A stretch of 64,000 nt of DNA from Isoetes taiwanensis (Eukaryota > Streptophyta > Lycopodiopsida > Isoetales > Isoetaceae), in assembly GCA_021234155.1 (NCBI GenBank), contig JAJEKV010000016.1, positions 17,852,698 to 17,916,697 on the forward strand, written 5' to 3'. Positions within the stretch are counted from its first letter, which is position 1. Each line of letters begins with the position of its first letter. The translations under genes were made by a program, and so were the position numbers. Below, in pieces: positions 2,856-62,641 of this stretch. The notes beneath the pieces are model-generated. The model was not told the origin of the DNA, made no database searches, and was given only the letters and a program-made list of their open reading frames with translations.

Positions 2856-3748
2856 TCAGATAACGGGGCACCAAGCTGTTCCCATGACACACTGGACATC
2901 GCGGAATCTATCGCTACATAAATCAGACGGCATACAACGACTGGGATTCAACAAGACCCTCCAAGCGGACCGGACCTTGTGTTCGTTCACATGAGCAGTG
3001 TTAGATGGGATTATCCAACTGCTGCTCAGAGTATATTTCCCCCTTCTCCGCATCCTACAGATTGTGAACGTCAAACTAGGGGTCAATCTGCACCCACCAT
3101 GGTAGAACACAAAGTGGGCAGCCTTGTTCAGAAGGTTTCTATTATCCAACACACAAAGATTCTTCGTGTCCCCAGCTCCCCATCTCACATACAAATCTTT
3201 TCCTTTTTCAATCATACTCTCAGATATATTGTGCAAGTGGCAGGAGTAATGTACTTTCCCTATATCTTTCATGCAGTACCCTAACATACCCTCGAAACAA
3301 TGCAGCCTATTGTTCTTCAGAGCCTCGCATACTAAGATAACACCCGCAGGCTTAGAGAGCCAATTAAACTCCCTCTTGATGGCATTGCATTGTTCAATGC
3401 CTTAGGATTCTTGTAACGGGCTCTAAGGACAGCCTGGACATGGAGGTGATCAGCAGAGGATCCCCTCTCCAATGTAACAGCGCCAGCAATATACCTCCTG
3501 CTGCAAAACAAAGACATGGCATCGAAAAAGCTTCGGGGCACGTCCTGGCTAGACAAGGCCAAGGTGATAGAGGCATCTAAAGCATCCCAGGCCTGTGTTG
3601 GGTCTGGAATGGCACCAGAGGGCATGGCAGAATTGTGGGTCGAATCCTGGGTCTGCCCAGACTCAGATTCAATAAGCATACAAGCAGGCAGACGCCCATT
3701 GGCTTTGGGCTTTCTGGCAGCCCTCTTCATAGAAGACATGATCAACAA
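2856..3748 (-). pseudogene. HUH (Rep-type) endonuclease, copy 1, frameshifted
   Basis: This is a reverse-strand relic of a small single-strand DNA nicking enzyme. From the ATG at 3748 the frame carries AGAVTLERGSSADHLHVQ, with HLH at residues 101-103 as the HUH metal-binding signature. A second frame continues with CFEGMLGYCMKDIGKVHY, which fits Rep motif III (YxxK); the Tyr codon at 3276-3278 is the candidate nucleophile. The join is broken by a tandem duplication of GCATT at 3382-3391. Beyond motif III the protein matches copy 2 at 6433-7368 almost position for position (LDN, HFV-YHG, WI-P-NTA, LNP, PSD). Such domains are known in viral Reps and in eukaryotic HUH transposons (Helitrons, replitrons). 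No helicase domain is visible, so a replitron-like element is the better fit. Host-gene origin is not excluded. Confidence 0.62.
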
Positions 3749-5210
3749 CGGCCTTGCAATCTCTGTGGCGAATTCTTAAACTATTGTGGTGAAGCAAATT
3801 TACATGGGATACAACAGGGTGAGGGAATTCTGTAAGGGAGACAATATCGGCAGGGTTAAAAACGAACAAGGCACGACCAAGGTTGAAGGAGTGAAGGCAA
3901 GGTTCTTTTATGACGAGTTTAGAGCCGGTGGCAAATTTTCTGAGGAAATCAGGGGCTATGAGATTATGGACATGAAGGAGGCAGGCGCGGCCTTGGAGGT
4001 CTTCAAAAATGCTGCAAAGGGCTGTCTTCTTTCCAGCAGGCTGGAGCAGGAGCTGCAAGAGCGAAATAGAGTGCAGGGTAGAGAAGGGCGTAGGACCTTG
4101 TGATGGGAAACAGATGATGAAAGTAGACCGAACAAAGGATGAAAACAAAGGATTTTGCTAAGATGCTAAGCTCTGATATGGTATGTGCAGGTCGCTCCAC
4201 CTTGGGCGCCCAACCGAACCTCATATATCTGAGAATGGCCACCCAGAAAATAGCCAAGCTTGTGCTGGCGACACCTCATGTAACTGGATCAACCGGATAA
4301 ACACCTGATACAACACATAGCCTCCCCCGAAATAGCATGCTCCTCCATTCACGACACCTGCAGCCGACCCCATCCGGATCTCAGGACCCTTCTGCCATGT
4401 AGTTTCCAAAATGCATCTGTGATGCCACCATCAGAAAAATACTCTTCTGCATACGAATACCTGCCCACACCTTAGGAAATCTTATGTAAGAAAATAACAT
4501 TCTTCATCGTGCCCACATTATTGGTTTGACGGATAAGGTTCTTGAAGCTAAAGTTGTCACATTTGAAGTGTTGATATATTTAAGGGAAACGTCTAAATGT
4601 TTAACCCTTTCCCTTCATGAGAAGTGAGACTTATCCACTACCAGTAGAATCATTTAAAGCATAATTTGGAATCATCATGCCCTTTATGAAACTTATAGAT
4701 CGGAGAGACTTATCCAGTATTGGCAGTACATGATTGAGCATAGTGTCATGATGCAATATAATAGAGTACAACATAACATCATAGAGTACAACATAATAGA
4801 GCACCACATGACGTTGCTGCTAAGCGCTTGCTACAGTCGCACCATCCAAATCGTCCACTGGCATCTATAAGGTAGTTGGAGAAAATACTAGTAAGTTGAA
4901 TTTAAGCGATATTAAAAAAAAAATAGTGCATACCAAGTTCTTGGCGCTGCTTTGACAACTCCAACATGGAGCCTCCAATGGGAACCCCTCCCTCTAGATA
5001 GCCAATCAAGGTGGACGTGTGGTACATGCGAACATTCACATTGCGTTGCAGAACCTGCACCTTTAAAATTCGCCATTGCACCTCTGTCAAGTTTGTGGTC
5101 TCGCAATGCGAGTGAGAGAGCATCCTAACATGCTTCTGCCATTTGCCATCCCAATGTCCTCCAATGGCAGAGTGCAAGTGCAAGAAGAGCATAGATCCTC
5201 AGAAATTTTT
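3749..5210. other. Flank of HUH copy 1, no clear gene
   Basis: Frames on both strands extend upstream of the HUH copy 1 start (for example minus 3669-4148), but none shows a motif I recognise or matches the flank of copy 2. The region may be 5' sequence of the same element. The remainder to 5210 is unremarkable AT-rich DNA. Confidence 0.3.
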
Positions 5211-6432: not shown

Positions 6433-7368
6433 TTAGTCCACAGCCATATTATAATCATCCAGGTCTAATGCAATGAAATCAGCGCCCACTTCATCAGTGG
6501 GAGCAACAAGACTATAGTCTTCCTCCTCAACATCCACAAATTTCGCATCTTTGTTCCCCGGGCTGCATCTATCATCCCAGTACCTCCTCTTTCCCGCACG
6601 CTCTATGGGCTGCATCCCATCCAGGATCCCATAGAGCACAAAACGGACATCACTAGGAAGAGCAACCCAGGGATTCAGAGTTAAGAGCCATGCAACCTTC
6701 ACCCTGTGCTCCAGAATATAAGCAGTGTTCAAAGGTAGGATCCAGGTGTTGGACAGGATAAATTTCCACGTCCTAAACATTCTGGTTACGGCATACACAA
6801 GACGTGCACTAAGCTTCCTATGACCATGGTAGCAAACAAAGTGAAGGGCCCTGCTTAAAGGGCTTTTATTGTCCAATACAATTGCATTTTTTATATCTCT
6901 TGCCCCGTATAGCAGGTAGAGGTTCTTGTCCATTTTAATCTGGCACTCAGAAATGTTAGGCATGTGCACCCAATAGTGCACCTTCCCCACATCCTTCATA
7001 CAACACCCCACCATCCCTTCAAAACAATAGAGCCTTGTGTTCTTCACGGCTTTCCACACAAGAATGACACCAGCCAACTTCTGCACAGACCACCCAAACC
7101 ATCTCTTCAAGGAATCATTCACAGTGGCAGAGGTTTTTAGTTTCAATTTAGAAATGGCTTGATAGTGCAGGTGGTCTAGCTCACTGGCCCTTTTAGAGGC
7201 CACAACCCCAGCCACCATCTCATTCTCTAGAAACCACAACAACTTCACAAACCACGCCTCTAGAGCATCAGCTCTAGATTGGCCCATGGTTATATTGACA
7301 TGAACTAGGTCAATGACAGGCTTCTTCAACACCCCGCCCTCTACCCATCTATAGCCACACCAAGACAA
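6433..7368 (-). CDS. HUH (Rep-type) endonuclease, copy 2, catalytic Tyr replaced by Cys
   Basis: This is an uninterrupted 311-residue reverse-strand frame. Residues 22-27 (VHVNIT) fit Rep motif I, and DHLHYQ (HLH at 66-68) is the HUH signature. CFEGMVGCCMKDVGKVHY at 115-132 aligns with motif III of copy 1, but the Tyr is Cys122 (TGT at 7005-7003), which would abolish phosphotyrosyl chemistry unless another Tyr substitutes. After this come a conserved middle region shared with copy 1 and an acidic tail (VDVEEEDYS, LDLDDYN). There is no ATPase or helicase domain, and the length suits a stand-alone nickase. The open frame despite a lost nucleophile could mean recent inactivation or a retained DNA-binding role. 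The family assignment rests on motif order and on conservation between the two copies. Confidence 0.65.
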   Translation of the reverse strand: MSWCGYRWVEGGVLKKPVIDLVHVNITMGQSRADALEAWFVKLLWFLENEMVAGVVASKRASELDHLHYQAISKLKLKTSATVNDSLKRWFGWSVQKLAGVILVWKAVKNTRLYCFEGMVGCCMKDVGKVHYWVHMPNISECQIKMDKNLYLLYGARDIKNAIVLDNKSPLSRALHFVCYHGHRKLSARLVYAVTRMFRTWKFILSNTWILPLNTAYILEHRVKVAWLLTLNPWVALPSDVRFVLYGILDGMQPIERAGKRRYWDDRCSPGNKDAKFVDVEEEDYSLVAPTDEVGADFIALDLDDYNMAVD

Positions 7369-7400
7369 AGCCCGTTATCTCCGGCATCATAGCAGCCCTT

Positions 7401-18649: not shown

Positions 18650-18748
18650 TGGACATTGGGGTTTTTTAATCCGGGTAGTAATCCGCTTGCTGCGCTTTTG
18701 TATTGGGTCCCATAGACCGATTGGTCTCCGTGGACGATAAAAATTAAT
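18650..18748 (+). repeat. Dispersed ~140-bp repeat, copy C (truncated)
   Basis: Carries GGGGTTTTTTAATCCGGGTA, then TATTGGGTCCCATAGACCGA, then TTGGTCTCCGTGGACGATAA. It lacks the left GGTTTTTCCC..GAAAACC block seen in copies A and B. The (TTCC)n tract begins four bases after its end. Confidence 0.55.
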
Positions 18749-18751
18749 TAA

Positions 18752-19170
18752 TTCCTTCCTTCCTTCCTTCCTTCCTTCCTTCCTTCCTTCCTTCCTTCCT
18801 TCCTTCCCTTCCTTCCTTCCTTCTTCCTTCCTTCCTTCCTTCCTTCCTTCCTTCCTTCCTTCCTTCCTTCCTTCCCTTTCCCTTCCTTCCTTCCTTCCTT
18901 CCTTCCTTCCTTCCCTTCCTTCCTTCCTTCCTTCCTTCCTTCCTTCCTTCCTTCCTTCCTTCCTTCCTTCCTTCCTTCCTTCCTTCCTTCCTTCCTTCCT
19001 TCCTTCCTTCCTTCCTTCCTTTCCTTCCTTCCTTCCTTCCTTCCTTCCTTCCTTCCTTCCTTCCTTCCTTCCTTCCTTCCTTCCTTCCTTCCTTCCTTCC
19101 TTCCTTCCTTCCTTCCTTCCTTCCTTCCTTCCCTTCCTTCCTTCCTTCCTTCCTTCCTTCCTTCCTTCCT
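18752..19170. repeat. (TTCC)n microsatellite, 419 bp
   Basis: A nearly uninterrupted tetranucleotide tract with a few single-base slips (CCC, TTT). The strand bias (all pyrimidine on plus) makes it a polypurine/polypyrimidine tract able to form triplex DNA. Long open frames inside it (KEGR repeats) are artefacts. Confidence 0.97.
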
Positions 19171-20700
19171 ATATTGACTCCCAATATGAAGTCGAAATGT
19201 TGTGAAAACTAGCAAGTAATAGCTAAAACTAGAAGTCATATCAATACGGAAGTCATGAAACCCTTGGACATTGGCCTCAAGGGCTATATGATCTTCTATG
19301 AGTCGGAAGTCCCTTTAAGCTAACATAAGAGAATAGAGAATGGTGATTTAAGATATGTTTCCCTAAGCTAGTAGTGGTTGTCAATTGCATAGAACCAAGA
19401 CCTAGTGTTCTGATATTGATTCGTTGCCAAAAGAATTTGTGTTGCAATGTTGGACAGTTTAATGGTTGGGGGCATTGGTTTCAAAGAAATCCACTTAAAA
19501 AGGTGACTTTTTGTGATTTATCTAAACATGTATAAAGATTATAGACTCTCTCGTAAATATGGTACGTGGTTGTCTCCTTTTTTCCTTTGTTTTCTGGGTA
19601 CACTTTCATCGGGGTAATTTTTCGTTGCTTTTCTAACTATTATTTCCATAAATTTGTTTGTAGAAGAGGGCCAAGAATTTGGGGTCTCGCAAAATTGTGG
19701 ACAAGAAAGTTCGTGTGTGGGTTAGACACTGGCGAATTTGCAAAGGTGGAAAAATTGTGGACAGAAGAATTGCATTAGTAATTTGATGAGGCCAGCGAAT
19801 TTGAGCTGTGGGTAGCCAAGCAAAGCCTACAAAAGACTGTCCCCTTGGAAGCCCAATGCATACACAAAGCCCTCATTCTTCTTTATGTCATGAGCAGAGC
19901 ATTCTCATTTGATTCTTGGAGACTTGTCTCCTTCTAAGCTTCAACAGTTTCCATGCTTTGCAGGTCATGCCAAGGAAGGAGATGTGTGGTCAATTTTCCA
20001 TAAAAATTCAAACTGGAAAAAGCTATTACGGTATAAAAGTACGTTAGCTAAATCTGAATTATTCTTACTCTTTTGTTATGATGTGAGGAACCATCCACTC
20101 TGGTGCAAATGAATGCGGAGAATAGAGGGACATGGAGCTTATGATATACATATATTGGCGTGGACAGACCCTTAAAACACCTAAAACAAGGACAAATGCA
20201 AATCTTTCTATAAGATGGATCAATTCCAAATTGCTCAATATATTTTTTGTACATTTTGGTTTTACACATATGATCAGTTCCGACAGTTTTGCCACATCAA
20301 TGTGCTCCTTCGTGTTTTTGTCAAAGTTCTATTCATCCAAGAATTAAAATGGGAACTTGCTCCAAATAATTGGACCGAGTAATCCTAAATGTCAAGCTTC
20401 TATAAATATTAGGTTTTCTAGATTAAAACTGCATATTGCAAATGACGCAATAGCTTGCATATCTTAAAGAATATAGAAACTGCATAACTATTTTAAAATA
20501 TCATTTTTAGTGTGTGCCAGTGACGTGTGTGTAACAAACAATTTGGCATTTACGTTGTGAGCAATAATGCCATGTTTTTGGGGCCCATTACTTATGTTAA
20601 CTTAGGGCATGCTTGGAGGATGTTAACTCAGGCCATGCTTGGAGTAAGTCTATTGTTGTGTTCTAAAGATTATGATGTTTTCATATTAGGATTATATCGG
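19171..20700. other. No recognisable gene
   Basis: AT-rich DNA with short frames only. 19560-19780 and 20130-20350 contain frames without known motifs. Nothing I can support as a gene, RNA or repeat. Confidence 0.4.
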
Positions 20701-22360: not shown

Positions 22361-23660
22361 GGCTATGCATGGGTAAAAAATGTTTTTGGCCCCGATTGTA
22401 AAAGATGAACTCCATTGTAAGTAAAATGATGCATTGGAATTACTTAGAAAATGGATCATGGAATATAAAACAAAAGAAATTTTATAGAAACATGGAATGC
22501 GATCATTCATACTCTGTCAATCATATTAAGAATAATGAATGTATAGAATCATATCAAATATAATAATGAATGTATATATGCATCGATATATGACCATGTG
22601 TTTGAAAAATACCAAGGCTACAAAACAAACCACACCATTAGTTGTGGCTTCCTATTCTTTGCAACTCAAACTCAACCAAATCTTAGAATTAAGTCCTGGA
22701 ACTTGGCCAACATTTTTGACCAGGAATCCCGAGCCAGTTAAATCCTAGAAACCCCATAAAAAAAAATTGATGCAAACGTTCAATTAGACTATGACCATAA
22801 TTGATGCGGAGATGCCTTCTTTTTTTAACCAATTGCTGAATACAACTAATTAGGCTCTGAGGTTTTGCATGCGCTAGATTGTATGATTGTTCATAGACAT
22901 CCAAAAAGCCCTATGCAATTTACTCAAATTCATGGGTAGACGCATTTTCATTCCTATTTGATTCTTAAGGGAGTACCAAAAAAGGAAATTTTGATCTTAT
23001 AAAATATTTCCTCGCTGATTGCTTTTCTTCACAGCTATGGCATCCATTCAAGAAGATCTGATCAAACATTGCTTCGCCTCAGAAGTCCATATGGAGAATA
23101 AATTTTTTTATTAAACTAAATCAGAGAAAGTTCAAAGGACTTTGCCATCGCCATAGCTTTGGCCATTTTCGTCCATAACATGCATCTACCCTTATGATAG
23201 ATCAGTCTCTGATACTTGATACAAGGATTTAATCTGGGTTTGATACTATTGTTTATAAAATGCTCACTGCAAAAAACATGTCATCGCAAAGAAGAAAATT
23301 GAGCTAACTAATGGCGGTTGATTAGCATACGAGAGGTTATAATCTCCCCTTATATCTCATACCTATATGTATAAAAATCATCTCTCATCGTATACGAGGA
23401 CAGATAAAAAGAGAATAGAAAAAAAGATTGGTGCATTTGGGGGGGGGCTATTTGATGACTTTATAAAGGTGAGAAGAAAAAAAATCATAACCATTATAGC
23501 CCATATAACACAATAATGTATTATTCTTGCACTGCGACTCGCATGAAACCAACAAAGCGCCCGATAGATAGGCTTCTCATTCATCTCAGCAGATTTTCTA
23601 CAATGGTGGACAGTGGATAGCCGCACACATGCGAACTACCCACGAAAAATAAAGGGAAAA
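22361..23660. other. No recognisable gene
   Basis: AT-rich intergenic DNA. A G-run near 23440 and scattered short frames are all I see. A segment near 23540-23565 (GCATGAAACCAACAAAGCGC) recurs at 24250-24270. Confidence 0.35.
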
Positions 23661-23669
23661 TCCAATTAT

Positions 23670-23800
23670 ATCATTTGGACCCCAAAACAAATACAATGCT
23701 AATAGATGAGTGGCTGATGTACCGCTTAAAAGCTTATCACGGGGATTAAAAACCCAGCCCTTCGGTTTTCGAGGAAAAACCCTAGTGATAACCCTTCGGG
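23670..23800 (-). repeat. Dispersed ~140-bp repeat, copy D (diverged)
   Basis: On the minus strand: GGTTTTTCCTCGAAAACCG, then TGGGTTTTTAATCCCC, TGGGGTCCAAATG. The same block order as at 5610, but the most diverged of the four. Confidence 0.45.
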
Positions 23801-24061
23801 CCCCTGATTGGCTTAGACAAACGTAAGGCATAGAATCGGCTCCCAAAACCCGCGCATGGAGAAGTCGAAATGGATGGCCACTCGCCAACCAGTACCGCAC
23901 ATCACCAACAACAAACGAGAAACATACCAAAGAATAGCATCACCCGCTGGGTGGAAAAAGCATCACCCAACCCGGGGAAAAACATGATAAAAACGAACTT
24001 GTACAAAATATAATAAACAAAGAAGGGGGAGGGTGGGTTCAAAGAGAATAAAGGTCTGGCT

Positions 24062-24595
24062 GGGAGAAGAGGAAGCCGGAGAAACGTCGATGAAGAACTC
24101 GCAATAAGAAGAAAACGCCCAACCTAATGAACGACCCAAACGCATCGCGATGCATGCATGCGACGATGCAATGCATGCATGCTGCCTCTTGAGCAAGAAT
24201 GCCGGGTCGCCACGCGAATCGACGACATTCTTGCATGCATGCGACTTCGCATGAAACCAACAAAGCGCCCGATACCAAAGGACTTCCTTAACAAACTAGG
24301 ATCGAGGGCCGAAGGTCACGAGGATGAAGGCTAAAGGCCGGAAAGGACAAGCAGGAAAGCAACGCCAATTGGCCAAACCAGGCAGGAAGAAGCCCCTCCC
24401 CTGCCTGGAAACAAATCAAAGAGAATAAGGTACTGCTGAGAGAAGAGGAAGCGCCGATGAAATGTCGATGAATAACTCTGCAATAAGAAGAAAATGCCCA
24501 ACCTAATGAACGGCCCAAAACGCATGTGCTGCATGCATGCGACGCATGCCGTCTTGAGCAAGAATGCCGATTCGCTATGCGAATCGACGACATTA
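24062..24595. repeat. Direct duplication rich in palindromes
   Basis: 24062-24232 and 24426-24595 are copies of one segment (GAGAAGAGGAAGC, TGTCGATGAA, CAATAAGAAGAAAA, GCCCAACCTAATGAACG, ATGCATGC, TTGAGCAAGAATGCCG, GCGAATCGACGACATT). Copy 2 has a perfect hairpin CGATTCGCTATGCGAATCG at 24569-24587. Copy 1 has several ATGCATGC runs. No gene is evident. Confidence 0.75.
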
Positions 24596-24672: not shown

Positions 24673-25932
24673 CTATTCACGTTTATTGTAGTTAGAGATC
24701 ATAAACGTAGACACAAAACCCGCAACAGTGGCAGTGGCAATGGCCATGGCTCCTCCATATCTAGCGCCAAAGCTGGCCACATCCAACATCAAATCCACCC
24801 TATTATAGATAGACACATAATTGTGCTTGCCAAGGATGCAATACAAAGCACGTAGAGGAGTTAGAATTACTTGATATGCAAGTGGAAGCAATGAGGTTAT
24901 ACCAAATGCATCAAATATATGATCGAGGAACCATTCACTATGAACAGATGCTAGGACATCATTCACCATTATGGTCCCATCCATTGTGAGAGGATTATAT
25001 AACCCTTGCTTCCACACTCTAGATATGTCTGCAAGAACATGACGCTATCAATGTCAACGACAACTTAACAATGTTTTTAAGTTAAGAGTTTACCAGTGAC
25101 TTCCAAGGATGAGTTTCCCATGCTCCACATAGTATCACCGATCCTAATATCTTGTGCACGCTTATATTTAAGACCTTGATGCGCGTCTATTTTTTTACAA
25201 ACACCATGAGATAGGTAGTATTATGAAAGATAATAAGTTGGAAAAATGGATACCTTCCATAATTGGCACAAAATGAAGAGTCGTGAGCTCAAGGGCATAA
25301 TGAGTAGAAGATATGTCATGACTTTTAAGGCTTATCCTTAAGAATTCACTAAAGGTGTTTGGATCCTTATGGCCAAATGCATAAATATCACTATAGAGAA
25401 TCAAACGAAAGATATTAGTAAGAATGTGCCTTTATATTATCATAATTGTTAGATACCTTATCACCAACTTCAAGATCTCTCATTGCTTTCTTCCCACCAT
25501 TCATCACTTGCACCAAAGCATCACCTAAATTTTGGACAAGTGTATTATTAGCATCCTAACTAAGACTTTATCAAAGGAAACATCATTTATGCTCACCTGG
25601 AAAACAAACTTCTTTACTAGGAGGTGGCGGGGGAGGAGAAGGTGGAGGAGGGGAAGTAGTGAGTAGGGGAGGAGGTGGAGAAAGAGTAGAAGGTGGAGGA
25701 GGTGGAGGAATACTAGAATCTGGGAGGGAATCGGGGGAGGTGGAGGTGGGGGAACAGAGTCAGGTGGAGGAGGGGGAGTGATGGGTGGGGGAGGAGGTGG
25801 GGGAATAGAAGAAGGTGGAGAGTCAGGTGGAGGAGGAGGAGGAGAGTTAGGTGGAGGAGGTGACTTGAGCAAGCCATGGGCTAACATGAAAGAGATGAAC
25901 AAGGAGAAGCATAATGCTATAGCCCGAGCCAT
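24673..25932 (-). CDS. Secreted proline-rich protein with a Hedgehog/intein-type Hint domain
   Basis: Five exons, minus strand: 25932-25597, 25524-25457, 25390-25254, 25186-25094, 25028-24673; introns 65-72 nt with GT..AG ends. Exon 1 gives a signal peptide (MARAIALCFSLFISFMLAHG) and a long extensin-like Pro/Ser linker, ending KEVCFPG. The Hint module follows: CFPG^DALVQVMNGGKKAM (Cys as residue 1), DLEVGDK, YSDIYAFGHKDPNTF, then LTTLHFVPI (TxxH block), AQDIRIGDTMW, and YNPLTMDGTIMVNDVLAS. The tail is hydrophobic (ATATVAGFVSTFMI). Hint domains catalyse an N-S acyl shift at Cys1 that cleaves the preceding bond; here that would release the Pro-rich part in the secretory path or wall. Two defects are apparent: the Pro-rich frame is off by one base (G-run near 25733), and the exon 2/3 join is out of phase with the best acceptor. 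It may therefore be a young pseudogene, or the errors may be technical. Confidence 0.72.
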
Positions 25933-27900
25933 TGTTGAGGATTTGTGAGTTTATGTGCAAGGGGCTCCTTAAATAGGATAGTATTGGAACAATCTTCAAC
26001 CTAGACAATAATAGAGATGACAATTTATTCAAAAATGGATATTGACAAAGGATTCATGGTTTGGCACAATTCTTGACTTAACATGTGGTGCACACCTATA
26101 AAATCAAACATCATACATAATAATTTATGCCGCATGTCATAAACTAATTTGGTACTAAAAAGTGAGAAGGATATTAGACACACCTCTTTCTCTTCCTTGT
26201 ATGAAGACGTTACTAATGTTTTACCTAATACACCTTGTCCTCATAGTAAAGGACACAATTATTATATCTCATCAATGACATATGGAACTATATTGTATAC
26301 ATGGATCTAATATTGGTAATATTATTAAGATGGTCGATCAAGTACACAATATTTGTCGTCTAAACTACGTTTGTTGGGCAAGCAGTTGGTTGTCATCGGT
26401 TTTTACATATAAGTTTGGATTTTAGGGGTCTAGAGAAGCAAGAGGAATATTTTTCTCTATGACTTTCTTCGTTAATATTGGAAGTTCTTACGCTCCAATT
26501 TTTCAAAATTTTGGTCATTGCTTTTCTCATAGGTTATTGTCTATGTTACTATAGTCTCCCAACATAGGTAAATCACGTAGTCTCTAGGTTCCACTAAGGC
26601 ATTGAAGCTTCTCACAGGCCACAGCAAAATACAACTCAAAGACACCTTGTATAAACACAATTCTGGGAAGCCGAGGCTTGTCATTCATCACAGAGTATAC
26701 AATGGTTGAAGAATAGAGAGGGGTAGCCGACCATAGGAACAATTCAGAGAGTCAAACATCTGTAGTATTTCTGCTGACGCCCAATTCTCTTCATTTTCAT
26801 TATTTGGGTGCATGTTGGAGGATTTATACTGCTCTCTATGTTCAAGCAACACTTGATGGAGTCATCGTCCACCATTCATATTTGTTCTTCTTGAAATCCT
26901 TCTATCATCTCCAAGGCCTCATGTATATTCTTGGTGAAGATATTCTTTGCTCCATGTTGTGGTCGACGAATAAGCTCACAATTACCTTGATCTAAAATAA
27001 CTAGAAAAAGTGCCCAGCGTTGCTGGGTTTTTTGTTGGGATTAAGTTCAAAATTAATAAAAATATAGTGAGAATGTCAAGTTGGACATATACAATCGTTT
27101 GTTCTAACTTGAAGTTGAATATTGTCCTTTTAAAGTGTTTTATTTATTGAGCTTAAAACTTGAACATAAGTGATTAAGTTTTGGAATGGTCATATCATAA
27201 AATACTATCTATCTATCTATCATGCAGGTGAATTTGTGTGTTGACTCAAGTGTTGTCTTTTAAAGCTTTCATTAACATTGAGTGCTCTTAACATGGTTGG
27301 TTAAATTAAATTTTGAGATTGTCGTTATATAATATTCTATTTATTGAGATTAATATTTAAATACAACTTATGAGGTTTGAGAATCATATAATCTTTTTAT
27401 GATTCTTGCCCATGAGTTGCGAGTGAATCTTAAGAGAGTACGGGGTACACAATACATGTTAGATACTTATACCAATCATAATCCGGGGTAGAAGCATGAA
27501 AGGGTGGGCAAAAAAAGTGCCAGTATTTTACATTTACAAATTCAAAATGTAAGGAAATCCTCCCCCAAATTATTATTCTTGGAATGAATCATTAATAGCG
27601 CAAACAATTTTGAACTCTCCTCCCTCTCTGTTCAACCTCCCTCTCGCTCGAACCTCCATGGCCAGAAAGCTTGACATCCATATTCAACCTCCATAGCCAA
27701 GATCAGGGACCTCCATAGCCAAAAGCTTGCATTTTGAGAGCTGAAGCACCAGGGAACAGATCATGACCAAGCGACTTGGAACAAAGACATCTCCAAAAAT
27801 CTCCTCATAACAAACACCTAAAGCCCTTGCCAAGGTCTCCCACTAGAACTGCCCACCAAAACTCAAGAGTGGGTCTTCTTGGATCGGGAGGTCTTGCCTT
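25933..27900. other. Upstream of the Hint gene; no other gene seen
   Basis: This contains the presumed promoter of the reverse-strand Hint gene (25933 onwards), without a TATA element I would defend. 27570-27780 has a repeated phrase CCTCCATAGCCA/CCTCCATGGCCA and forms the left flank of the RING/C48 gene relic. Confidence 0.3.
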
Positions 27901-33980: not shown

Positions 33981-34421
33981 ATGAACATTGGGCGCTCCCT
34001 TTGGCGCCTCGAACTCCGTGCAATACCGGACCCAATGGATGAGGCCTTCTTGGAGGCTGTTCTCCAGGGTCTGGGCTTCTCGGAGATCCCCAATGGCTTT
34101 GATGTGACAGTAGCAGCTCTAGATAGCTTAATTATTCAGTCGTACAATTCTAGAACAAGGATTGGATTTTGCAGATCAGCTTTTAGCAGTCATTATCTGA
34201 GTATTCTTTGTTTTGATAGAGTAGGTTCTTTAAGAGTTTCGGCCCATAACTCGGGTTACCTAGCCTTAGACAGATTTTCAAGAAATCTCTTTCAAATTTC
34301 GGTACTAGAAAGGTTCGAAATCGAGCCCATTCTTCACTGGACAGAGTTCTTCGATCTCAAACCGGCCTGGTTCTTCACGGATCTACAGATTCTTGTGTGG
34401 AGATTTGCGGGAGAAAACTAG
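33981..34421 (+). CDS. L1 first ORF (ORF0), unknown function
   Basis: An intact 146-residue frame from the first ATG of the element (the ATG at 33963 lies in the target-site duplication and is host sequence). It contains RSLWRLELRAIPDPMDEAF, DVTVAALDSLIIQSYNSR and SILCFDRVGSLRVSAHNSG. No nucleic-acid-binding motif is evident to me. It ends in TAG, and the next ORF begins two bases later (TAGTAATG), so reinitiation or coupled translation is plausible. Alternatively it is the N-terminal part of ORF1 separated by a single stop, but the following ATG is in another frame. Confidence 0.6.
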   Translation: MNIGRSLWRLELRAIPDPMDEAFLEAVLQGLGFSEIPNGFDVTVAALDSLIIQSYNSRTRIGFCRSAFSSHYLSILCFDRVGSLRVSAHNSGYLALDRFSRNLFQISVLERFEIEPILHWTEFFDLKPAWFFTDLQILVWRFAGEN

Positions 34422-34423
34422 TA

Positions 34424-36384
34424 ATGTCTTACAGACAAGAGAAAAATGGTTCGGGGCCCTCCAAAAACCCAATTGACAAAGAAAAAGCCCTCAGAATCAT
34501 AGAGGATGATGAATGGACGAACATCTTCTGGCTGGAAGATAAGAAAGATAAGGTGTGGAAAAAGCTGAAAACTCTGTATATCACTTTCCCGCTTATTCAA
34601 GATCAGCAAAGAGCGGCTGCAGTTTGCATGGATGTTCAGGAGGACGGCGTGCTTTGCGACACCCTGGGCAAAATGAGAGCTTTAGAGAAGGATTATGCCT
34701 CTGGTAGAGCAAACGACCGTGATTGGGCCTGGAATTTTCTTGAGTTACTTCAAGAAATGGACAGAAACCTATGCAAAAGGATTATGGTAAAGCAAGGCCA
34801 GTCTGAGTCGGATTGTTGCAGCCTAAAAAACAACATCTTTCAGAAATCAATGAATGAGCTCCTTAATTCAGCGAAAACCCTGCTTATGGACTTGGAAAAC
34901 CTTAAGTGGAATTCCAAGGCTTCGATAAAACTGATCAAGAGATGGGAAGAAGCTGATGACAGTGTCATAGAAAGGCATCGAAAGCAGGCCAAAAGCAAGC
35001 TCCCATCTGGCGCGGACCTGTTTCTAGAGGACGTCTCTCAGGAGTATGGGATCTTCCAGACCAAACTCAAGAAGGATACCAATGCATGCGAAATAAGAGA
35101 CTCAAATGGCTACTTCAACCCTTTGGAGACGAACCAATGCGAATGCAAGAACTGCAAAAGTACAAATGCATCTGGGTTCGGCAAGGCAAGTACCATTGTT
35201 GGCGATCAGAATGTCAGCAACCGGATTCCTATTCTGGGCAAAAGCGACAAAGCTAAAGGTCAAATTCTTCCTTCTTATAAAAATGCTTTGCTTAATGTGG
35301 TTTCTTGCGATAATCCATCTGACACACCAAAAGCTAATTCGGATTATATTGATCTTTCAGATATCCAAGATTCTTTTGCTGTTAATCTTTATTCTGAAAG
35401 AGGTCTGATCATCCACTTTCCTATCAATTGCCCCTCCTTAGGAGAAGTTAAATTTTGGATTACCAAGATTCAGAGAATTCCTATTCTATCTTTGCTCAAG
35501 ATCGATGACAGAACCTTTCAAATCCTGTGCAAAGATAATTATAGTGTTTCCTACATTCTAAAAAAGAAATTGGGCAAAATAAGCAACAATGATTTCTATA
35601 TTATGAGATGGAGCCCCTTATTTACCCCAGGTAATAGTAATCATATTTCTACTACTACTTGGACCACCTTCCCCAATTTGCCCCCTGCTCTGTGGACCCT
35701 TTCTCATCTTAAGGCAATTGCAGGGAACCTCGGGGACATTATATCCATAAATATTCCTCAAACTAACTTCCCCTCTATCTGCATATCCAAGAATATCAAC
35801 TCCAGATGGTTGAGGAATGTTAAGATCAAGCTTTCAGAGGGCAGAACTATGGATTTGGATATTGTTTACTCTAAGCTCCCTGTCATCGAAATTCCAGTGA
35901 AGGAGGCTCCTATTGATAACAAAAGCCCCCTTAATCTCAAACCCCCTCTCATCATCAGACAAGAGTGGCGTCCTAAAAAAAGGCAACTGAAGACGAGATG
36001 CAAAATGGCAGCAAAATCATTGACATAATTCCCCGAGCCAAGACGGAAGATAAAAAAGGCTTTATCCCCAATTATGAGCCGAATGATCCCTATTAAGACA
36101 GTAATTGGAATTTTGTCTTCAAAAATGTTAATATGGCTGTCAAGTTTAAAATAGGTTTTGTAACTCTCTCCTTCCCCCTTAAAGAAGACAATCATCCTGA
36201 GGCTGATACCGAGAGCTATGGTTCCGAGAATGATTTTCTTCACTCTTGTGATGATGAAGGTTGGAAGCAGATAACAAAGAAAAGAGGCAGGGGACAGAAA
36301 AAATCCTATGTTGGACCGTTTAGGGTCAGTCCCAGAAGTTCTGCCATTCAATCTAGAATGGCCAAGGGCTTTTATAAATATTAA
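34424..36384 (+). pseudogene. L1 ORF1, RNA-binding (DUF4283-like)
   Basis: The frame starts at the ATG 34424-34426. The N-terminal ~200 residues are helical and charged. A Cys cluster lies at CECKNCKSTN, followed by a region that fits the RRM-like DUF4283 of plant LINE ORF1 proteins: LIIHFPINCPSLGEVKFWI, RTFQILCKDNYSV, PALWTLSHLKAIAGNLGDI, LRNVKIKLSEGRTMDLDIVY. A frameshift at the A-run near 35978-35984 moves the C-terminal part to another frame (KIIDIIPRAKTED..), which has one TAA at 36094. A basic end follows (KKRGRGQKKS). The last stop, TAA 36382-36384, shares its final A with the ORF2 ATG. Confidence 0.75.
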
Positions 36385-38524
36385 TGTTTAATTCCCTTAG
36401 AATTATCACCTGGAATCTCCAAGGTATTAACAATCAGGGAGCATTTAAAAGTCTGCCTCTCCTCCCTCAACCTTGATATCTTATTCATCCAGGAACATAA
36501 GATTCATGATCCTAACCATAATACTATTATTTCCAGGGCTCTCCCTCCTAATTTTCAAACATGGTCTATAAGTGCTAACAACTCTTCTGCAGGCATAGCT
36601 ATAGCTTGGAATCAGAGAATTGATCTGCATATAGATCATATGATTAATGATAATAATGGTAGATGGCAGATTTTGGTTTGCAAGATCGGATCTGGTAATA
36701 TAGCTTTAGTTAATGTCTACTCTTATCATAATCCTTCTGATAGAATTTTAGTCTGGAATAAAATTAACTCTAGTTTAGCTAGTTTAGATGTTGATGATTT
36801 GATTATTGGAGGTGATTTCAATATGGTTACTGATTGCTTTATGAAAAATAGAAATTTTAGGGCCCTTCTTCCTCAAGAGATGAATGCTTGGGTCAGTCTT
36901 CTCTATGCTCATAATCTTAAGCTTGCCAGAACCAAGCCTAACTCATTCAGCTGGTCTGATCATAGAGTTGACCCCATTTGCTGTCTTCATGACAGATTTT
37001 ACCTCAGTGAAATTTTTTGGACCATTAGTAGTAGGGTTGAGAATTTGGCTGGCTACACCCTCTAAGACCACTACCCCCAGTTAATTATCTTAAGTGGTGC
37101 AGACCAAAATAAGAGAAAATCTTTCTTCAAGTTGAATGTCAGCCTTCTTGATCATGAAGACTTTCTTCCCAAGCTTCAAGATATTTATAATTGCCACCCC
37201 ATCCCCGCTGCTGACAAGGGTTGGATGTGGTGGTGGATCAATCTAGCTAAGCATATAAAAAGCTGGCTGAAAGAATGGGGTAAGGAGATTCATTACAACA
37301 AGCAAGCCAATCTAGCCTTATCAACACTCCCACTGATCAGCAGAATGACATTAAGATCCATATAGAAAAAGAAGAGATTGAGATTGCCAAAGGGTGGAAA
37401 ACGAAAGCGAAAATCAAGGAGCTCAAAGAGGATGAGAGGTGTAACTCCAAGTATTTTTTTGTCAAAACCAAAACAAGGATCAAAAGAAACCAGATCTATG
37501 AGATCAGAGTTGGAGATGCTCTTATCTCAGATGATAAAGATCTTAAAAAAGCTGCAGTTGAGCATTTTACTAACATCATGGGCACAAATACTGATTGTCC
37601 TGAAGAGATGATGGATACTTTTATTAAAATAGAGAATAAGGCGAATGACAATCAGAATGAGTTGATCTCTTCCCCCTTTTGGGAAATTGAGCTCAAGGAA
37701 GTAATCATGGGTATGGAAAATGGTAAGACTCCTGGTCCAGATGGTTTACAAGCTGAATTTTTAAAAAAAGCCTGGCCTATTCTTGGAGCAGGTATTACCA
37801 GATTGGCTAATGAGTTCAGAATTTGCAAGCGTCTGGATGCTCGAATCAACACTAGCCTTATCACTCTTATTCCCAAAATTGACTCCCCCATCTCTTTTGC
37901 CGACTATAGACCTATCTCTTTGACTAATGTTGTTTATAAGATAATTGCAGGTGCCATAGCTGCCAGACTCAAAAAGATTTTGGATTCTGTTATAAGCCGC
38001 ACCCAATCTGCCTACTTAAAAGACAGATTCATCTTGGACAATGTGGTGACTGCTATTCTAGGTTTACAATGGGCTAAAGACTCCAACCAAGATATAGCCC
38101 TCCTTAAGCTTGACATCACAAAAGCCTTTGACACAGTCAGTTGGAAGTTTCTTTACAAATGTTGCAGAGCTCTTGGCTTAAATGAGGAAAGTGTTGGTAT
38201 GTTTAAAGCCATCCTCAGCAACTCCAGATCTGCAGTCCTCATAAATGCTGAGACCAGCCCCTTCTTCTCTATCCAAAGAGGGGTAAAACAAGGTTGTCCT
38301 CTTGCACCCTTTCTCTTTTTAATTGTTATGGAAGCTTTGCACAGCAGATTGGAAGAAGCAAAGAACAATAACTCCATCAAGGGCCTTAAGCTCCCGGATA
38401 ATCCACAAGTGGATCAGATCCTAAATGGGCATTTTGCTGATGATACTTTTATTTTAACTTCCATGGAACAGAGCTCCATCATCAACATCCAGAGTATCCT
38501 CCAGGACTTTGGCCATGTTTCAGG

Positions 38525-41282
38525 CAGGGTGTCAAAGAGTGGCGATTAATCGCCAAATGGCGAAATTTTAGGGCCTTGGTTGAAAAAAATGGCGAATGTG
38601 TTAGAGGACCATTGTTGGAAAAAAAAAAAAAACAACTGAAATTTTTCCATTCAAAATTTGACCACATTTTTTGCCATTCAAAATTGTAACGATCGAGGTA
38701 GGTGAGCCGATTCGCGCCTTCAATGAGGGCCGGATGTGCATGCCATTAGAATACTGAAATAGCCATTTTTTTACTTCATTCGTCCCCTAAGAGGTAAATC
38801 ATCATTATCTAGGTCTTGTAGATTATAAGCTTGAAGTCTTTCGATTGTATGTAAATGGGGATTCGGGATTGCTAATAACAGAGGGAATCGGTAAGCTTTC
38901 ATACAAAAGCTTTTATCTGTTTATCAAAGCACATATTATTCATGGCTTGCACTTTCGATTTATGTTTACAGAACCTTCGAACATCATATTCGAATCGGTG
39001 CACTTGCTTTAGATGGAGTATTTCGGTAAAGAAACATTTTTGCTTGACGATTTTGTGTGAATTTCTTATGGATCCATTCTCTATGTGTTACCCGAATCGG
39101 AGCATTGGCGTAAGGTTTGGGTATTCTGAGCTTTTTTAGCCCTTCTTAGTTTTCATCCATTTATTTTCTTCTCTCGGATTTTCTTTTCGATTTTTTTGTT
39201 GAAAAGCTAGGATATAGAGAAGAAGACATCTCCGATTGAACTTGGCCGTGGTCGAACTCTGCAAATCTCTACACAAAATAAGATGGTTAATGCAAAGAAA
39301 AGTCTAAAAGAGAATTTTAAACGAAGTTATCTCATTCCGAAAGGTCCTAAAGTGAAAGATTTAAGGGTAAAAGCTGCTAAAAAGATGTTCTTTGTGACTA
39401 TCTATAAGGGTTTTTCGGGTTGTTCAAGATAATTTAGTGTCATCGCAGATAGATTGAATTATATAGATTGAGAAAAAAACAGGTTGTCACTTGGTTGGAC
39501 AATATTCTAGACATAATTTCATGTCATTTGCCCTAAATTTCCCTTTATTTTTTTTTTGGAACTTGTCACCATAGATGTGTCAAAGGGTTTTTCAAAGGGT
39601 TTTTCAGTTGTTCAAGATAATTTAGTGTCTTTGCAGATATTGGAAAGCATAGGTGCAGCAGTTTAACCTAGCAAGGAATAGAATTTGTGTGATATTATGT
39701 GCAAATGGGGTTTTGCCAAACTCTTCTTCTTCTTAAAACGATAAGGTTGCTTTCAGGTCGTTTATGCCAAGCATGTGATAGACCCAATTATATAGATCGA
39801 GAAAAACAGTTGTCACTTGGTTGGACAATATTCTAGACATAATTTCATGCCATTTGCCCTAAATTTCCCTTCTTTCACCGGAACTTGTCACCATAGATGT
39901 GTCCATATGGTTTTATTACAAAAGAGGTCTTTTCAATTTATGCATACAAAGTTGTACTCGATCTGAATCTATTGATTTACGTATTCATGTGCATCATGGT
40001 CTACTTTATGCATCTTTTAATCTTCATGGGTTTTATGCGTGCATCGGTCCTCGCTATGGCGGTGTTACCAAGTTAAAATACAATAATATGGTTACGGTCC
40101 ACATTTATTGAAAATGTTTGTATCCTTTGATGACAACCTTTGCTTTCACAAGGCATGTACGGTTGTCTTTCCTTAAGATTCATAGCAATTGGTTTTACAA
40201 CGTTCTAGTATTGTCTTTCCTTAAAATTCATGGTTCACTTTGGTTTTACAAAGGATCTGGTGCACCTCAGAATTGCGGGAACCATCACTATTGGAATAGC
40301 TATTCATGGTGGTGTTCATATGGCTTGTGACTTTTTAAGAATTGGTGGTAAAGGTGCTGAATTGGGTTTCCTCATTCCAGGTACTAGTTAAACATGTGTG
40401 CAGCTAAACGATGGCATTAAATCAAGATGGTATGCTCTAGGTTGAAGCCAATTGTAGACTGGTACCGTACAGAAGAAAATACGTCAAGGTTGCACTAGTC
40501 TTGGAAGACGGCCATCTTAAACGTATTGATTTAGCAATGGCAGTGTTTTATAGGTTTGTCAAGTTTTGACGTTAATCTAAAATATTGAATGAAGCTAAGC
40601 CGAATGGTTATTGCATAACTAGTTATTCGTATCTGATGTATAACTAGTGGTTTGTCCATCGATTTTTCAAGCAGCAGTTCTTTTTGTCAAGGTAATTCAA
40701 ATAATAAGGAATGGACCTTTAAAATTATAGGTGGATTTGAACTTAGGATGCACTTGGATATTGCAAAAATACCCATGCTAAGTCTTTGAACTTAAATCCT
40801 TGGATTTAACATTATAGGTGGATTTGAACTTGGATGCACTTGGATATTGCAAAAATCCCCATGCTAAGTCTTTGAACTTAAATCCTTGGATATGAATATG
40901 ACAAATCTAGAGGAGCAATTCAAGGAGAAAATACTGTGTAGCCCAAGAAGGTAGAGATGTTTACATCAATTATAAACTAGGAGTGCACATCAATGCCCAA
41001 AAGAAAGTCTTATCATTTACATTACCTTCTCTTTTTGTTTTGTTTTTTTGGAAGGGGGGCTAGATTAATGATTTTGTGATGATTTTTAAAGGATTGTGAA
41101 AGTTGCCAACTAAAATTGTCAGTGGAAAGTAAAATAATCAATTTTAGCCAAGTCCAATATAAATCAAGGACTCAAAATAAGCAAATATAGCCAAATAAAA
41201 ACACAAATTTATCCTTTCCTTGGAAGTTTAGCCAACCTTAAATTTTTGCAATAAAACTTTAAGCTCCTTAAAATTTACCCTG
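38525..41282. mobile_element. hAT-like DNA transposon nested in the L1 RT gene
   Basis: 2758 bp bounded by CAGGGT...ACCCTG and flanked by an exact 8-bp duplication GTTTCAGG (38517-38524, 41283-41290). These are the hallmarks of hAT elements. Removing it with one duplication restores the L1 reading frame. The inverted match beyond the first six bases is weak. I find no transposase frame, so it is non-autonomous or gutted. The interior holds a duplicated block (39409-39580 versus 39600-39900, sharing TTGTCACTTGGTTGGACAAT and GGAACTTGTCACCATAGATG), an 83-bp tandem duplication (40732-40900), and a short host-gene-like segment at 40261. Confidence 0.85.
40262..40390 (+). pseudogene. Possible NADPH-oxidase (RBOH) fragment carried in the hAT
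   Basis: One frame reads RIAGTITIGIAIHGGVHMAC, then DFLRI. This resembles the heme-coordinating transmembrane helix of plant RBOH proteins (AG..AIGI.IHGG.H.ACDFPRI), with the conserved His of the H-x-ACDF motif present. It covers only about 25 residues, and the neighbouring frames do not extend the match. It would be a captured exon piece if the call is right. Confidence 0.4.
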
Positions 41283-43810: not shown

Positions 43811-44290
43811 TCATTCCATTCCCACTTTTTTTTCGGAACCCTGTTATTTTACACAAAAAGGAGCACCCCGACCCGACAATTGTCCATAATTCGAATTTTT
43901 GTCTGTTAGTGTGCATCCAAGCTTTCTTCCAGTTTTCTTGGATAGCGAGTCGAGAACAAGAACAAGAACAATGCAACTCAAACATAGGAATTTCATTACA
44001 GATTGAAACCAAAGTTCTAGTTGTAAAAGATTCTTAGTTGAAAATTTTGGCTCTATTTTCTTAGGTGGGTAGACAAGAGATCACAAATTCCAACAAAAAT
44101 TAAGCAAATTGTTTACTTAATCACCAAAAAATACTAGTTTTGAGATACCTTATCCTTCCTATTATAAGGCAGATACATTTTTCTGCCCCGGCCTAATTTC
44201 TTCCTTACAAATTCTATTTGCATGACGCGTTGTGGTTTGTGCATTTATTGCAGATTCGACATTTATGGCGAGCATTTATGGCAGATTAGG
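43811..44290. other. No recognisable gene
   Basis: Mixed AT-rich sequence with an inverted word AAAGTGGGA..TCCCACTTT near 43801-43830 just past the gag fragment. Nothing else seen before the bL12 gene. Confidence 0.35.
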
Positions 44291-44415
44291 CATTTATGGC
44301 GAGCAGATATGGCTCGGAGGTTGACCCGCGATGCTGGCGGTTATGGAAGCAGCAAGGCCAAAAGCCCTCAAATATCCATTGCAGATCTTCCACTCCTACA
44401 CAGAGCTCAGCGGCT

Positions 44416-45135
44416 ATGGCGACATCGTCTCTCCACACATCCTTCATTGGCGCCGGATCTTCGGCCCTTTCGCTGCGAAGCGCCTCTTCAATCTGCCCCA
44501 GGTCCCAAATCTTCCTCGCCCACAAACACGGGGTTTCAAGAGCATGCATGGCAACCGGCCAATCCACTACGGTGGTAGCAACTGTAACTGTGGACATTGA
44601 CAAATTGATCGAAGAAATCAAATGCCTTACCTTGGCTCAAGCTAGAACGCTCACAGATAGGTTGCAAGACGAATTGGGAGTAACTGCTGCTTCTTTCGCA
44701 GTCCCTGCCGCAGCCACTGGTGGCGCCGGAGCTGTTGCCGAAGCTGATCCTGTTGTTGAAGAAAAAATAGAGTTTGATGTGGTCTTGGATGAGGTACTTA
44801 CTTCTGCCAGAATTTCTGTTATTAAGGCCATTAGGGCTTTGACAGGATTAGGGCTAAAAGAGGCCAAAGATGCAATTGAAACTACTCCTAAAGTTGTAAA
44901 AGAAGGGATCTCTAAAGATGAGGCTGAAGAGGCAAAGAAGCAATTGGAGGCTGCTTCAGAAGATCTTGGTACTTCATTTGCGTTGGAATCAATGATCTCT
45001 GGCACTACGAAGCTAATATGGAATTTGTTTTCACAGAATCGTAAGGAATTTACCATGAAGGGATTGAAAAGTACTCGAAAATGTTGGAAGAGAAACCATG
45101 GATATTCTTGCACTGGAAACAGGAATTGGATTTGA
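44416..45135 (+). CDS. Plastid 50S ribosomal protein bL12 (L7/L12), altered C-terminus
   Basis: Single-exon frame. The preferred start is the ATG at 44416; an in-frame ATG at 44296 would add 40 residues of unlikely sequence. Residues 1-45 are Ser-rich and look like a chloroplast transit peptide. The N-terminal dimerisation domain follows ([19 protein letters not shown]), then an Ala/Gly hinge, then the C-terminal factor-binding domain: [49 protein letters not shown]. Normal bL12 ends a few residues later with a short strand (GAxVxV). Here ~60 unrelated residues follow ([14 protein letters not shown] onwards). The protein forms the ribosomal stalk that recruits translation factors. The replaced end suggests a rearranged or retroposed copy, possibly non-functional, although the rest is uninterrupted. 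Confidence 0.8.
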
Positions 45136-49989: not shown

Positions 49990-50804
49990 GCTATTCATGA
50001 TCATATACGGACAAATGCTTCCGATTCTAATAATCCTGGCTATGGCAGAAATCCGAGCTCCAGAAATTATTTCGATCCCGAGCTCATAGCCACAATTGAG
50101 AGGGCCTTTGAACAGATCACAGAAGAGGAATGGGATTTTAAGGATTCCCAGACAAATTCTGATACTAAATCTGTCTAGATAAGTCCGGCGAGGACACAGA
50201 GCATCAAATCGGACAAAGGGGATGCGGAATCGAAGGGCAACAAGATACCCAATTCATCCAAAGCTGCAAATTTGGCAAGAACAGAAGATGATCAGAAAAT
50301 TTCTGGAAAAGAATTTGAAGATCCGTTTGAAGGATTCAAATATCTGTGCCCTCCGGGAGGGGAAGAAAAGGTTGTGATTTATTACACAAGCTTAAAAGGG
50401 ATCAGAAAAACGTACGAAGAATGCAACGAGCTGCTCACTCTGATCCGGAGCTTCCATATCCAGATTGACGAGCGGGATATTTCGATGCATTCGGGATTCA
50501 GGCAGGAATTAAAAGACCTGGCAGGGATTGATTGCTCGGTGCCCAGATTATTCATAAAAGGGCGATATATTGGAGGATTGACAGAGGCTGCAATTCTTCA
50601 CGACGACGGAAAGCTTGAAATTTGATCCGAGGAATCACCCCAGAAGACCCCTTTAAGATCTGCGATGGCTGTGGCAGTGCCAGATTCATCCTTTGCCTTG
50701 ATTGCAGCGGCAACTGCAAAATCAGACCCCAAAATGGCGATCTTCAAGAGCGCTGCTCCGAATGCAACGAAAATGGGCTCGTCAGATGCCCCATTTGCTG
50801 CTAA
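49990..50804 (+). pseudogene. Glutaredoxin-like protein with C-terminal CxxC domain, broken
   Basis: The conserved part (50272-50620) matches plant GRX-like proteins: EEKVVIYYTSLKGIRKTYEE, IQIDERDISMHSGFRQEL, VPRLFIKGRYIGGLTE. This family has a degenerate active site. The C-terminal zinc-binding region is in another frame (50627-50804): KICDGCGS, CLDCSGNC, RCSECNENGLVRCPIC, with four CxxC pairs intact. The switch needs only a one-base deletion near 50620. Upstream, the same frame (YFDPELIATIERAFEQITEE) is cut by TAG at 50176. One stop and one or two frameshifts in an otherwise well-preserved gene point to a recent pseudogene or sequence errors. Redox or metal-related function is inferred from the family only. 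Confidence 0.75.
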
Positions 50805-59366: not shown

Positions 59367-59735
59367 CAATGTTGTACCGTACGTATACCGTACCGTACGT
59401 CCGAAAAGTATTTTTTAAAAAAATACGTATTTTTTGTCATACGTGCTTAAAATGCTTAAAATACGTTTTTTTTTTAATTAAAAAAAAAGCCTTAAATATT
59501 AGTAAAAATGAAACTAAACTACAAATAGATTGTTGGAATGTTGGTTAGCATGCTAATTTTTTATGTAGGAGATCCAGGTTCAATCCCTAGTGAGTACAAA
59601 GTAAGTTTATTTTTAAAAACTAGTGTCTGTTTTTTTAAAAAAAGCTTCAGACATATTTTTTAAAAAATACGTGTACCGTACGGTACGGGAGGGTACGTAT
59701 GTATTTTTAAAAAATACGCGTATTTGAACAACACT
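59367..59735. mobile_element. 369-bp MITE with 9-bp target duplication inside copia gag
   Basis: Flanked by GATCACGCT on both sides (59358-59366, 59736-59744). Deleting it and one copy restores the gag frame (AAG GAT CAC GCT ATT CAG). The ends are weakly inverted (CAATGTTGT and inverse AGTGTTGTT), and inside them GTACCGTACG words and TTTTTTAAAAAAT are inverted. A 9-bp duplication suggests a Mutator-type MITE. The interior (59530-59600) has TTGGTTAGCATGC and CCAGGTTCAATCCCT, a tRNA-like A/B box pair, perhaps a SINE inside. Confidence 0.8.
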
Positions 59736-62561: not shown

Positions 62562-62641
62562 AGGAAAAATAAAAGACTAAGATTGACCCAAAAGAAGCAA
62601 ATAGAAAAATAAAAGACTAAGATTGACCCAAAAGAAGCAAA
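62562..62641 (+). repeat. 40-bp tandem duplication in the copia RT gene
   Basis: The unit AAAAATAAAAGACTAAGATT..GAAGCAAATAG is present twice with a period of 40 bp (not a multiple of three), so it shifts the pol frame. Confidence 0.85.

Follow-up and report, generated by a model that had tools for sequence, protein, structure and literature searches.

A 64-kb stretch of DNA from Isoetes taiwanensis (hereafter, the window) was analyzed for a minus-strand gene at 25932–24673, which an earlier reading of the letters (the original prediction) had described as encoding a secreted Pro-rich protein with a Hint domain of the Hedgehog type. The gene was confirmed at this position, and the predicted elements were recovered: MARAIALCFSLFISFMLAHG was recognized by eye and from hydropathy as a predicted signal peptide, and it was followed by a Ser/Pro linker and by Cys1 (VCFPG), GDK, SDIYAFGHKDP, TTLH, IRIGD, and GTIMVNDVLAS in a Hint-like order. 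The described architecture held for the gene family, in which six of 17 copies of this Ser-Pro class were open from the signal peptide to the stop codon, but not for the window copy as sequenced, which carried two breaks. The window locus is a damaged gene copy. Its features are as follows (D303, the position occupied by Asp in wild-type fly and human Hint).

25597–25932, minus strand: exon 1, with the start codon at 25932, the signal peptide, the Ser/Pro-rich linker, and Cys1 (VCFP) at the 3' end, with a frame break within the linker (comparison with paralogues)
25525–25596, minus strand: intron 1 (GTGAGC...TTTAG), phase 1; borders kept in most paralogues
25457–25524, minus strand: exon 2, GDALVQVMNGGKKAMRDLEVGDK, Hint block A; PF01079 alone, E-value = 4.1e-4 (stretch 25415–25555)
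25403–25456, minus strand: intron 2, incomplete; GTATCT donor and a branch-like TTACTAAT kept, acceptor lost (comparison with paralogues)
25254–25402, minus strand: exon 3 remnant, ILYSDIYAFGHKDP..., which includes the His of the D303 position and TTLH (TxxH); approximately the first 26 nt gone
25187–25253, minus strand: intron 3 (GTATCC...AATAG), phase 1
25094–25186, minus strand: exon 4, DAHQGLKYKRAQDIRIGDTMWSMGNSSLEVT
25029–25093, minus strand: intron 4 (GTAAAC...TGCAG), phase 1
24673–25028, minus strand: exon 5, the end of Hint (PLTMDGTIMVNDVLAS) and a tail of ~90 residues in place of the sterol/adduct recognition region; PF01079 alone, E-value = 3.1e-8; stop codon at 24675–24673
25933–26215, minus strand: upstream region with a TATA-like TATTTAA box; alignable to many paralogues
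23526–24592, no strand assigned: insertion of ~1.07 kb just beyond the 3' end of the gene; not present at C59 or C974:20.20 Mb, the two paralogous loci examined at base level

Hint match and damage of the window copy

The Hint profile of Pfam (PF01079) matched exons 2–5 of the window copy, joined with the exon 2/3 junction bridged by X, with an E-value of 2.2e-22 and 80.1 bits (cut-off 29.7). When single exons were scanned, exons 5 and 2 matched with the values listed above, exon 3 matched weakly (E-value = 0.28), and exon 4 gave no match; a scan against NCBIfam produced no match. Seven Ser-Pro copies were aligned, and PF01079 exceeded the cut-off in all of them (best E-value 5e-30), with Cys1 and TxxH invariant throughout, so that both the profile match and the two catalytic positions expected of homologues were found. 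GT-AG borders were present at introns 1, 3, and 4 of the window copy, and segments spanning its exon 1 and upstream region showed ~75–94% identity to many paralogues.

The prediction of one continuous five-exon protein had to be given up for this copy. Within the Pro linker, the ATG frame and the Cys1 frame were one phase apart. Sixteen conceptual GT/GC-AG introns would restore the linker frame, 15 of them by taking out at least 152 nt (over half of the linker) and one of 32 nt; none was credible, and an intron within exon 1 was rejected as a rescue of the frame. Exon 2 ended in phase 0, and no acceptor fitting it was present at exon 3. The paralogues used for comparison had an intron 2 ending in ...TTTAG and an exon 3 starting with VAVF(S/A)EDxxILYGDIY; relative to them, the window copy was short by a net 28 nt at ~25402/25403, corresponding to the intron-2 acceptor and approximately the first 26 coding nt of exon 3, with the YSDIYAF strand retained just downstream of the scar. 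A continuous frame was thus not obtained by GT-AG splicing, and because of the break in the linker and the loss of the acceptor and exon 3 start, the window copy as sequenced is unable to make the described protein.

Alternative ways of joining exons 2 and 3 were also considered and rejected: there were 23 conceptual ones, and none of the 12 longest retained both block A and YSDIYAF. The idea that the donor side of intron 2 had been lost, with exon 2 reading on as VSNNYDNIKAHSY, was discarded, since the paralogues show the first stretch to be intron. This readthrough scored 97.3 bits against 86.5–88.1 for shuffles (above 4/4), and the rival filler ILTNIFRLILY scored 94.0 bits against 88.0–90.2 (also above 4/4); a rejected join thus beat all four shuffles, which calls for caution with such small controls.

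According to PMC8566536, miniasm was used to build the Isoetes taiwanensis assembly from Nanopore reads (flow cell v9.4.1), and polishing was done with racon, pilon, and Illumina data. Since it is Nanopore-based, the frame break in the linker could be a sequencing error. For the 28-nt loss this origin is less likely, and Nanopore error was therefore rejected as the sole cause of both breaks.

Three N-terminal classes joined to one Hint domain

The family was searched for in the Isoetes taiwanensis assembly (1,658,258,908 bp, 1110 contigs). Comparison of the exons by tblastn with stretches near scored Hint matches yielded 16 multi-exon copies of the Ser-Pro class and three fragments, and a 17th copy was found later; both totals are lower bounds because solely such stretches were examined. 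The six open copies (C974:20.193, C974:20.200, C1026:15.284, C1045:21.293, C1096:4.012, and C1096:4.027 Mb) contained the signal peptide, a linker of 53–359 residues up to Cys1, TxxH, His at the D303 position, and the conserved tail, and their exons were bounded by GT-AG splice sites. SPPPP modules followed the signal peptide, and SPPP+ runs numbered from two to nine in each of ten in-frame copies, whereas no Tyr-x-Tyr cross-link motif was seen when the linkers of these six copies were read by eye; the term 'extensin-like glycomodule' is therefore preferred here over 'extensin'.

In the C59 and C916 copies, the linker frame was the sole defect. Of the 15 copies in which both exon 1 and Cys1 were readable, 10 kept one frame up to Cys1 (P 0.0085 against an expectation of 1/3, on the assumption that copies are independent, which recent duplicates are not). 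The two copies left out of this count were C1026:15.273, which is without exon 1, and C1096:4.042, in which the frame runs into a stop where Cys1 is expected.

The three fragments (C974:20195470, 20202473, and 20252212) comprised the end of exon 3, exon 4, and, in two of them, part of exon 5, and they were located ~0.74 kb behind three multi-exon copies. The DNA between the C974 copies and the fragments was matched by positions 22945–23525 of the window; taken together, this points to an old tandem unit. The 1.07-kb insertion adjoining the window gene had an 82% similar stretch at C974:20246715–20247625 and contained internal repeats of 65 and 43 nt.

When the Hint search was loosened, 41 matches were obtained at E ≤ 10, which drew attention to two genes on C1034 (L041 and L042) and to five places on C1036. 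These loci represented two further classes with the exon plan of the Ser-Pro class, namely, one in which a hevein-type chitin-binding module is joined to Hint and one in which the signal peptide is followed by a short stretch and Hint. The open copy of the hevein class was the following:

C1036:4411900–4415000, minus strand: L043, hevein class, with four more copies or parts within ~55 kb

In L043, a signal peptide was followed by the hevein module, PSPPSPPPPP, SSSS, a Gly run, CFP, and Hint (83.2 bits). The hevein module of this one copy matched PF00187 over profile positions 8–38 of 38 (E-value = 5e-9, 36.7 bits, cut-off 27.8). Exons 1–4 were placed by script, and exon 5 was separately read as open. 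The hevein module was also present in L044, L046, and L048, which had frame breaks or stops in exon 1, while in L047 part of exon 5 alone was seen. The short class consisted of L041 (Hint match 70.5 bits) and L042, both on the minus strand of C1034, in which the signal peptide was followed by a short NGNKN(D)...GSTSG stretch and then CFP; both were apparently open, with exons 1–3 placed by script and the borders of exons 4 and 5 by eye. The part released from such a protein would be a small peptide. A PT-HINT match of this class (16.1 bits) was set aside as being below the cut-off of 27.7.

No Hedge domain was found in the stretches scanned with Pfam: the window exon 1 stretch (25525–25950) had no match, exon 1 of the hevein class matched PF00187 only, and exon 1 of the short class matched nothing. 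Exon 1 of the open Ser-Pro copies was judged by reading alone.

Catalytic residues, tail, and constraint

The catalytic residues were compared in an alignment of two Ser-Pro copies, one hevein-class copy, one short-class copy, and a fly Hint row, which was that of the engineered D303H variant. Cys1, His at position 303, and the T and H of TxxH were kept in all four plant rows, which span the three classes. In PMC9163320, the fly D303H variant is described as retaining structure and activity in vitro and as having a widened sterol tolerance. When a profile of the seven aligned Ser-Pro copies was compared with the PDB, this same variant (6TYY) scored highest with 41.3 bits, followed by human SHH (38.9), wild-type fly Hint 1AT0 (37.4), and 6TD6 (34.8); besides these four Hedgehog chains, the search at E ≤ 1 returned a single unrelated chain, and inteins were absent. 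Past the Hint domain, the four plant rows shared a tail of the form HSEWFLD..FD..G.T..LP..Y..IL.P.R..Y, common to the three classes. Near the C terminus there was a hydrophobic stretch, GAMAIATATVAGFVSTFMI (Kyte–Doolittle 1.69). It was rejected as a transmembrane helix, its hydrophobic maximum being equalled or exceeded in 2200 of 5000 shuffles.

Over exons 2–5, the ratio of nonsynonymous to synonymous substitution rates (dN/dS, NG86) ranged from 0.19 to 0.63 in the 45 pairs formed by ten of the 17 copies, the window copy being included with a gap; between the window and C59 copies, dN was 0.016 and dS 0.081. A neutral simulation attained the observed synonymous count in 12 of 5000 runs for one pair and in 268 of 5000 for another, which is just short of the 5% level. 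Because the pairs share history, the dN/dS and simulation figures are indicative. In a tree of the ten copies, the window copy grouped with C59 (support 0.943). As judged from these sequences, the family is real and moderately constrained in its Hint part.

Further features were noted elsewhere in the window. Two Replitron HUH endonuclease regions (PF21859) were located on the minus strand at 2856–3775 and 6433–7374, the first being split over two frames; the E-values in the three open reading frames (ORFs) were 1.2e-7, 3.9e-8, and 9.7e-11. A LINE-like element (long interspersed nuclear element) with a DUF4283 ORF and a reverse transcriptase ORF occupied 34250–38549 and, by eye, perhaps continued to 42770, and Ty1-copia-like ORFs were seen by eye at 59664–63189. 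Domains of ribosomal protein L12 (plastid-type by eye) and glutaredoxin were found at 44290–45135 and 50179–50625, respectively, and a long CCTT-type microsatellite was noted by eye at 18741–19208.

Putative autoprocessing, competing explanations, and known relatives

The window copy is interpreted, with a probability of roughly 0.6, as a damaged member of a lycophyte family in which short secreted modules are fused to a Hog domain (Hint plus an adduct-recognition region) and the intact members of which would autoprocess, this capacity being deduced from the residues they keep. Secretion, cleavage, the nucleophile (sterol transfer included), the location, and the biological role are likewise predicted from sequence. 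Intact members would enter the endoplasmic reticulum by the signal peptide; the Hint domain would fold, and, aided by the TxxH block, a thioester would form at the (Val or Gly)–Cys1 bond. With the His of the D303 position as general base, the N-terminal acyl group would then pass to a nucleophile, either water or a sterol bound by the C-terminal region. This would yield an N-terminal module, free or lipid-anchored, in the form of a Ser-Pro-rich peptide (potentially hydroxylated and glycosylated), a chitin-binding module of the hevein type, or a very short peptide.

Several observations weigh against this interpretation. Eleven of the 17 Ser-Pro copies, including that of the window, were damaged by a frame break, deletion, insertion, or missing part, in some of them perhaps owing to assembly error, and an open linker frame is weak evidence because the C/T-rich linker strand has few stop codons. 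Selection was moderate at most, with dN/dS reaching 0.63, and four of the ten copies in that set were damaged elsewhere. The tail had no profile match, and with a Pfam match that reaches no further than position 162 of 213, the profile lends no support to sterol binding by this region; the AlphaFold model of exon 5 (11 rows) was too poor for use (predicted local distance difference test, pLDDT, 44.9; predicted template modelling score, pTM, 0.25). Residue −1 was Gly in the hevein and short classes, as in Hedgehog, and Val in the Ser-Pro class; in inteins, the acyl shift is slowed by beta-branched residues at −1. At the motif J position where fly has Cys (C400), the plant rows had Val or Ala. 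According to PMC2362128, this Cys is replaced also in moss and red algal Hogs and is therefore not required for Hog membership there.

The main rival is that Hog cleaves by hydrolysis only, acting as a self-removing maturation tag that would free the Ser-Pro or chitin-binding module into the wall with no lipid; it is regarded as possible but not favored. It would account for the absence of a sterol-region match past position 162 of PF01079, for Val at −1 in the Ser-Pro class, and for the loss of the motif J Cys, and it is consistent with the report in PMC9163320 that fly D303A still cleaves with dithiothreitol (DTT) without completing cholesterol transfer. However, hydrolysis alone needs neither a His at 303, which was found in 4/4 plant rows and which in fly D303H preserves sterol transfer, nor the tail that is conserved across the three classes. 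Two other explanations are less likely. The Pro-rich part may never be cleaved and may form a stalk that spans the wall, borne by a membrane-bound domain that derives from Hint but has a different function, with which the hydrophobic GAMAIATATVAGFVSTFMI and Val at −1 would agree; this is improbable, given that shuffled sequences so often reach the same hydrophobic maximum and that Cys1 and TxxH were kept in all aligned copies (7/7 and 4/4). Equally improbable is that the whole family is decaying or is assembly noise with no present function. The damage to the 11 Ser-Pro copies and to four of the five hevein-class places, which were broken or incomplete, speaks for such decay, whereas the dN/dS range, the six open Ser-Pro copies, the two apparently open short-class copies, the one open hevein copy, and the conservation of the splice sites and upstream region speak against it.

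The proposed autoprocessing Hog proteins can be set beside several known systems. With the Hedgehog proteins (fly Hh, 1AT0/6TD6; human SHH, 7E2I), they share Cys1, TxxH, the Hint profile, and the order of signal peptide, secreted N-part, Hint, and C-terminal region, but they differ in having no detected Hedge domain, a His at position 303 like the engineered 6TYY, a motif J without Cys, a tail without a profile match, and, in the Ser-Pro class, Val at −1. Inteins likewise have Cys1 and TxxH, whereas the Isoetes chain runs on into a conserved tail of ~90 residues, with no C-extein junction recognized by eye. Extensins and hybrid proline-rich wall proteins have the signal peptide and SPPPP modules but no Hog domain, and the Tyr-x-Tyr motif of extensins was not seen in the Isoetes proteins. 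The nematode warthog, groundhog, and quahog families resemble the Isoetes family in that one Hog domain is joined to several unrelated secreted N-terminal modules per genome (PMC2362128 and PMC1636047); their modules are different, those of Isoetes being of plant wall and chitin-binding types.

Plant Hog proteins are already known. PMC2362128 reports Hog genes in Physcomitrella and Selaginella and none in Arabidopsis, and it describes a signal peptide in the P. patens Hog as well as an upstream region that has no counterpart in other organisms. The Isoetes proteins agree with these in the land-plant Hog domain, the signal peptide (P. patens), and the replaced motif J Cys; they differ, as compared by description rather than by alignment, in their Ser-Pro repeat, hevein module, or short stretch at the N-terminus and in forming a multi-copy family. 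No report of Hog proteins with Ser-Pro, hevein, or short N-termini was found in the open-licence literature, from which absence from print does not follow. Nothing was found there joining hedgehog, Hint, and extensin, or Isoetes and hedgehog, and the same was true of hevein among the papers listed; the terms 'hedgehog' and 'Hint domain' did not occur in the main text of the Isoetes taiwanensis genome paper (PMC8566536). Pattern scans for relatives gave 49, 4, and 86 matches in viral contigs and 60 in genome contigs, none of them confirmed.

Protein–sterol ligation is not known to occur outside animals. A more far-reaching and quite tentative proposal is that, alongside glycosylphosphatidylinositol (GPI) anchoring, Hog chemistry serves lycophytes as a means of anchoring wall proteins by a lipid or of releasing them. 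A Ser-Pro glycomodule and a chitin-binding lectin would then be made as precursors with a Hog domain and be transferred to a plant sterol by a natural Hint of the D303H type, the modules having been swapped before a common Hog. With the catalytic residues intact, a His base, and cargo of wall and chitin-binding types, the working of this chemistry in plants and its cargo become directly testable. In the hevein class, a membrane precursor would carry or release a chitin-binding module, a point relevant to the way in which plants present proteins that bind chitin. The family as a whole suggests that modules have been swapped onto Hog domains in organisms other than animals, and it hints that plants may use Hog chemistry to release or lipid-anchor wall proteins.
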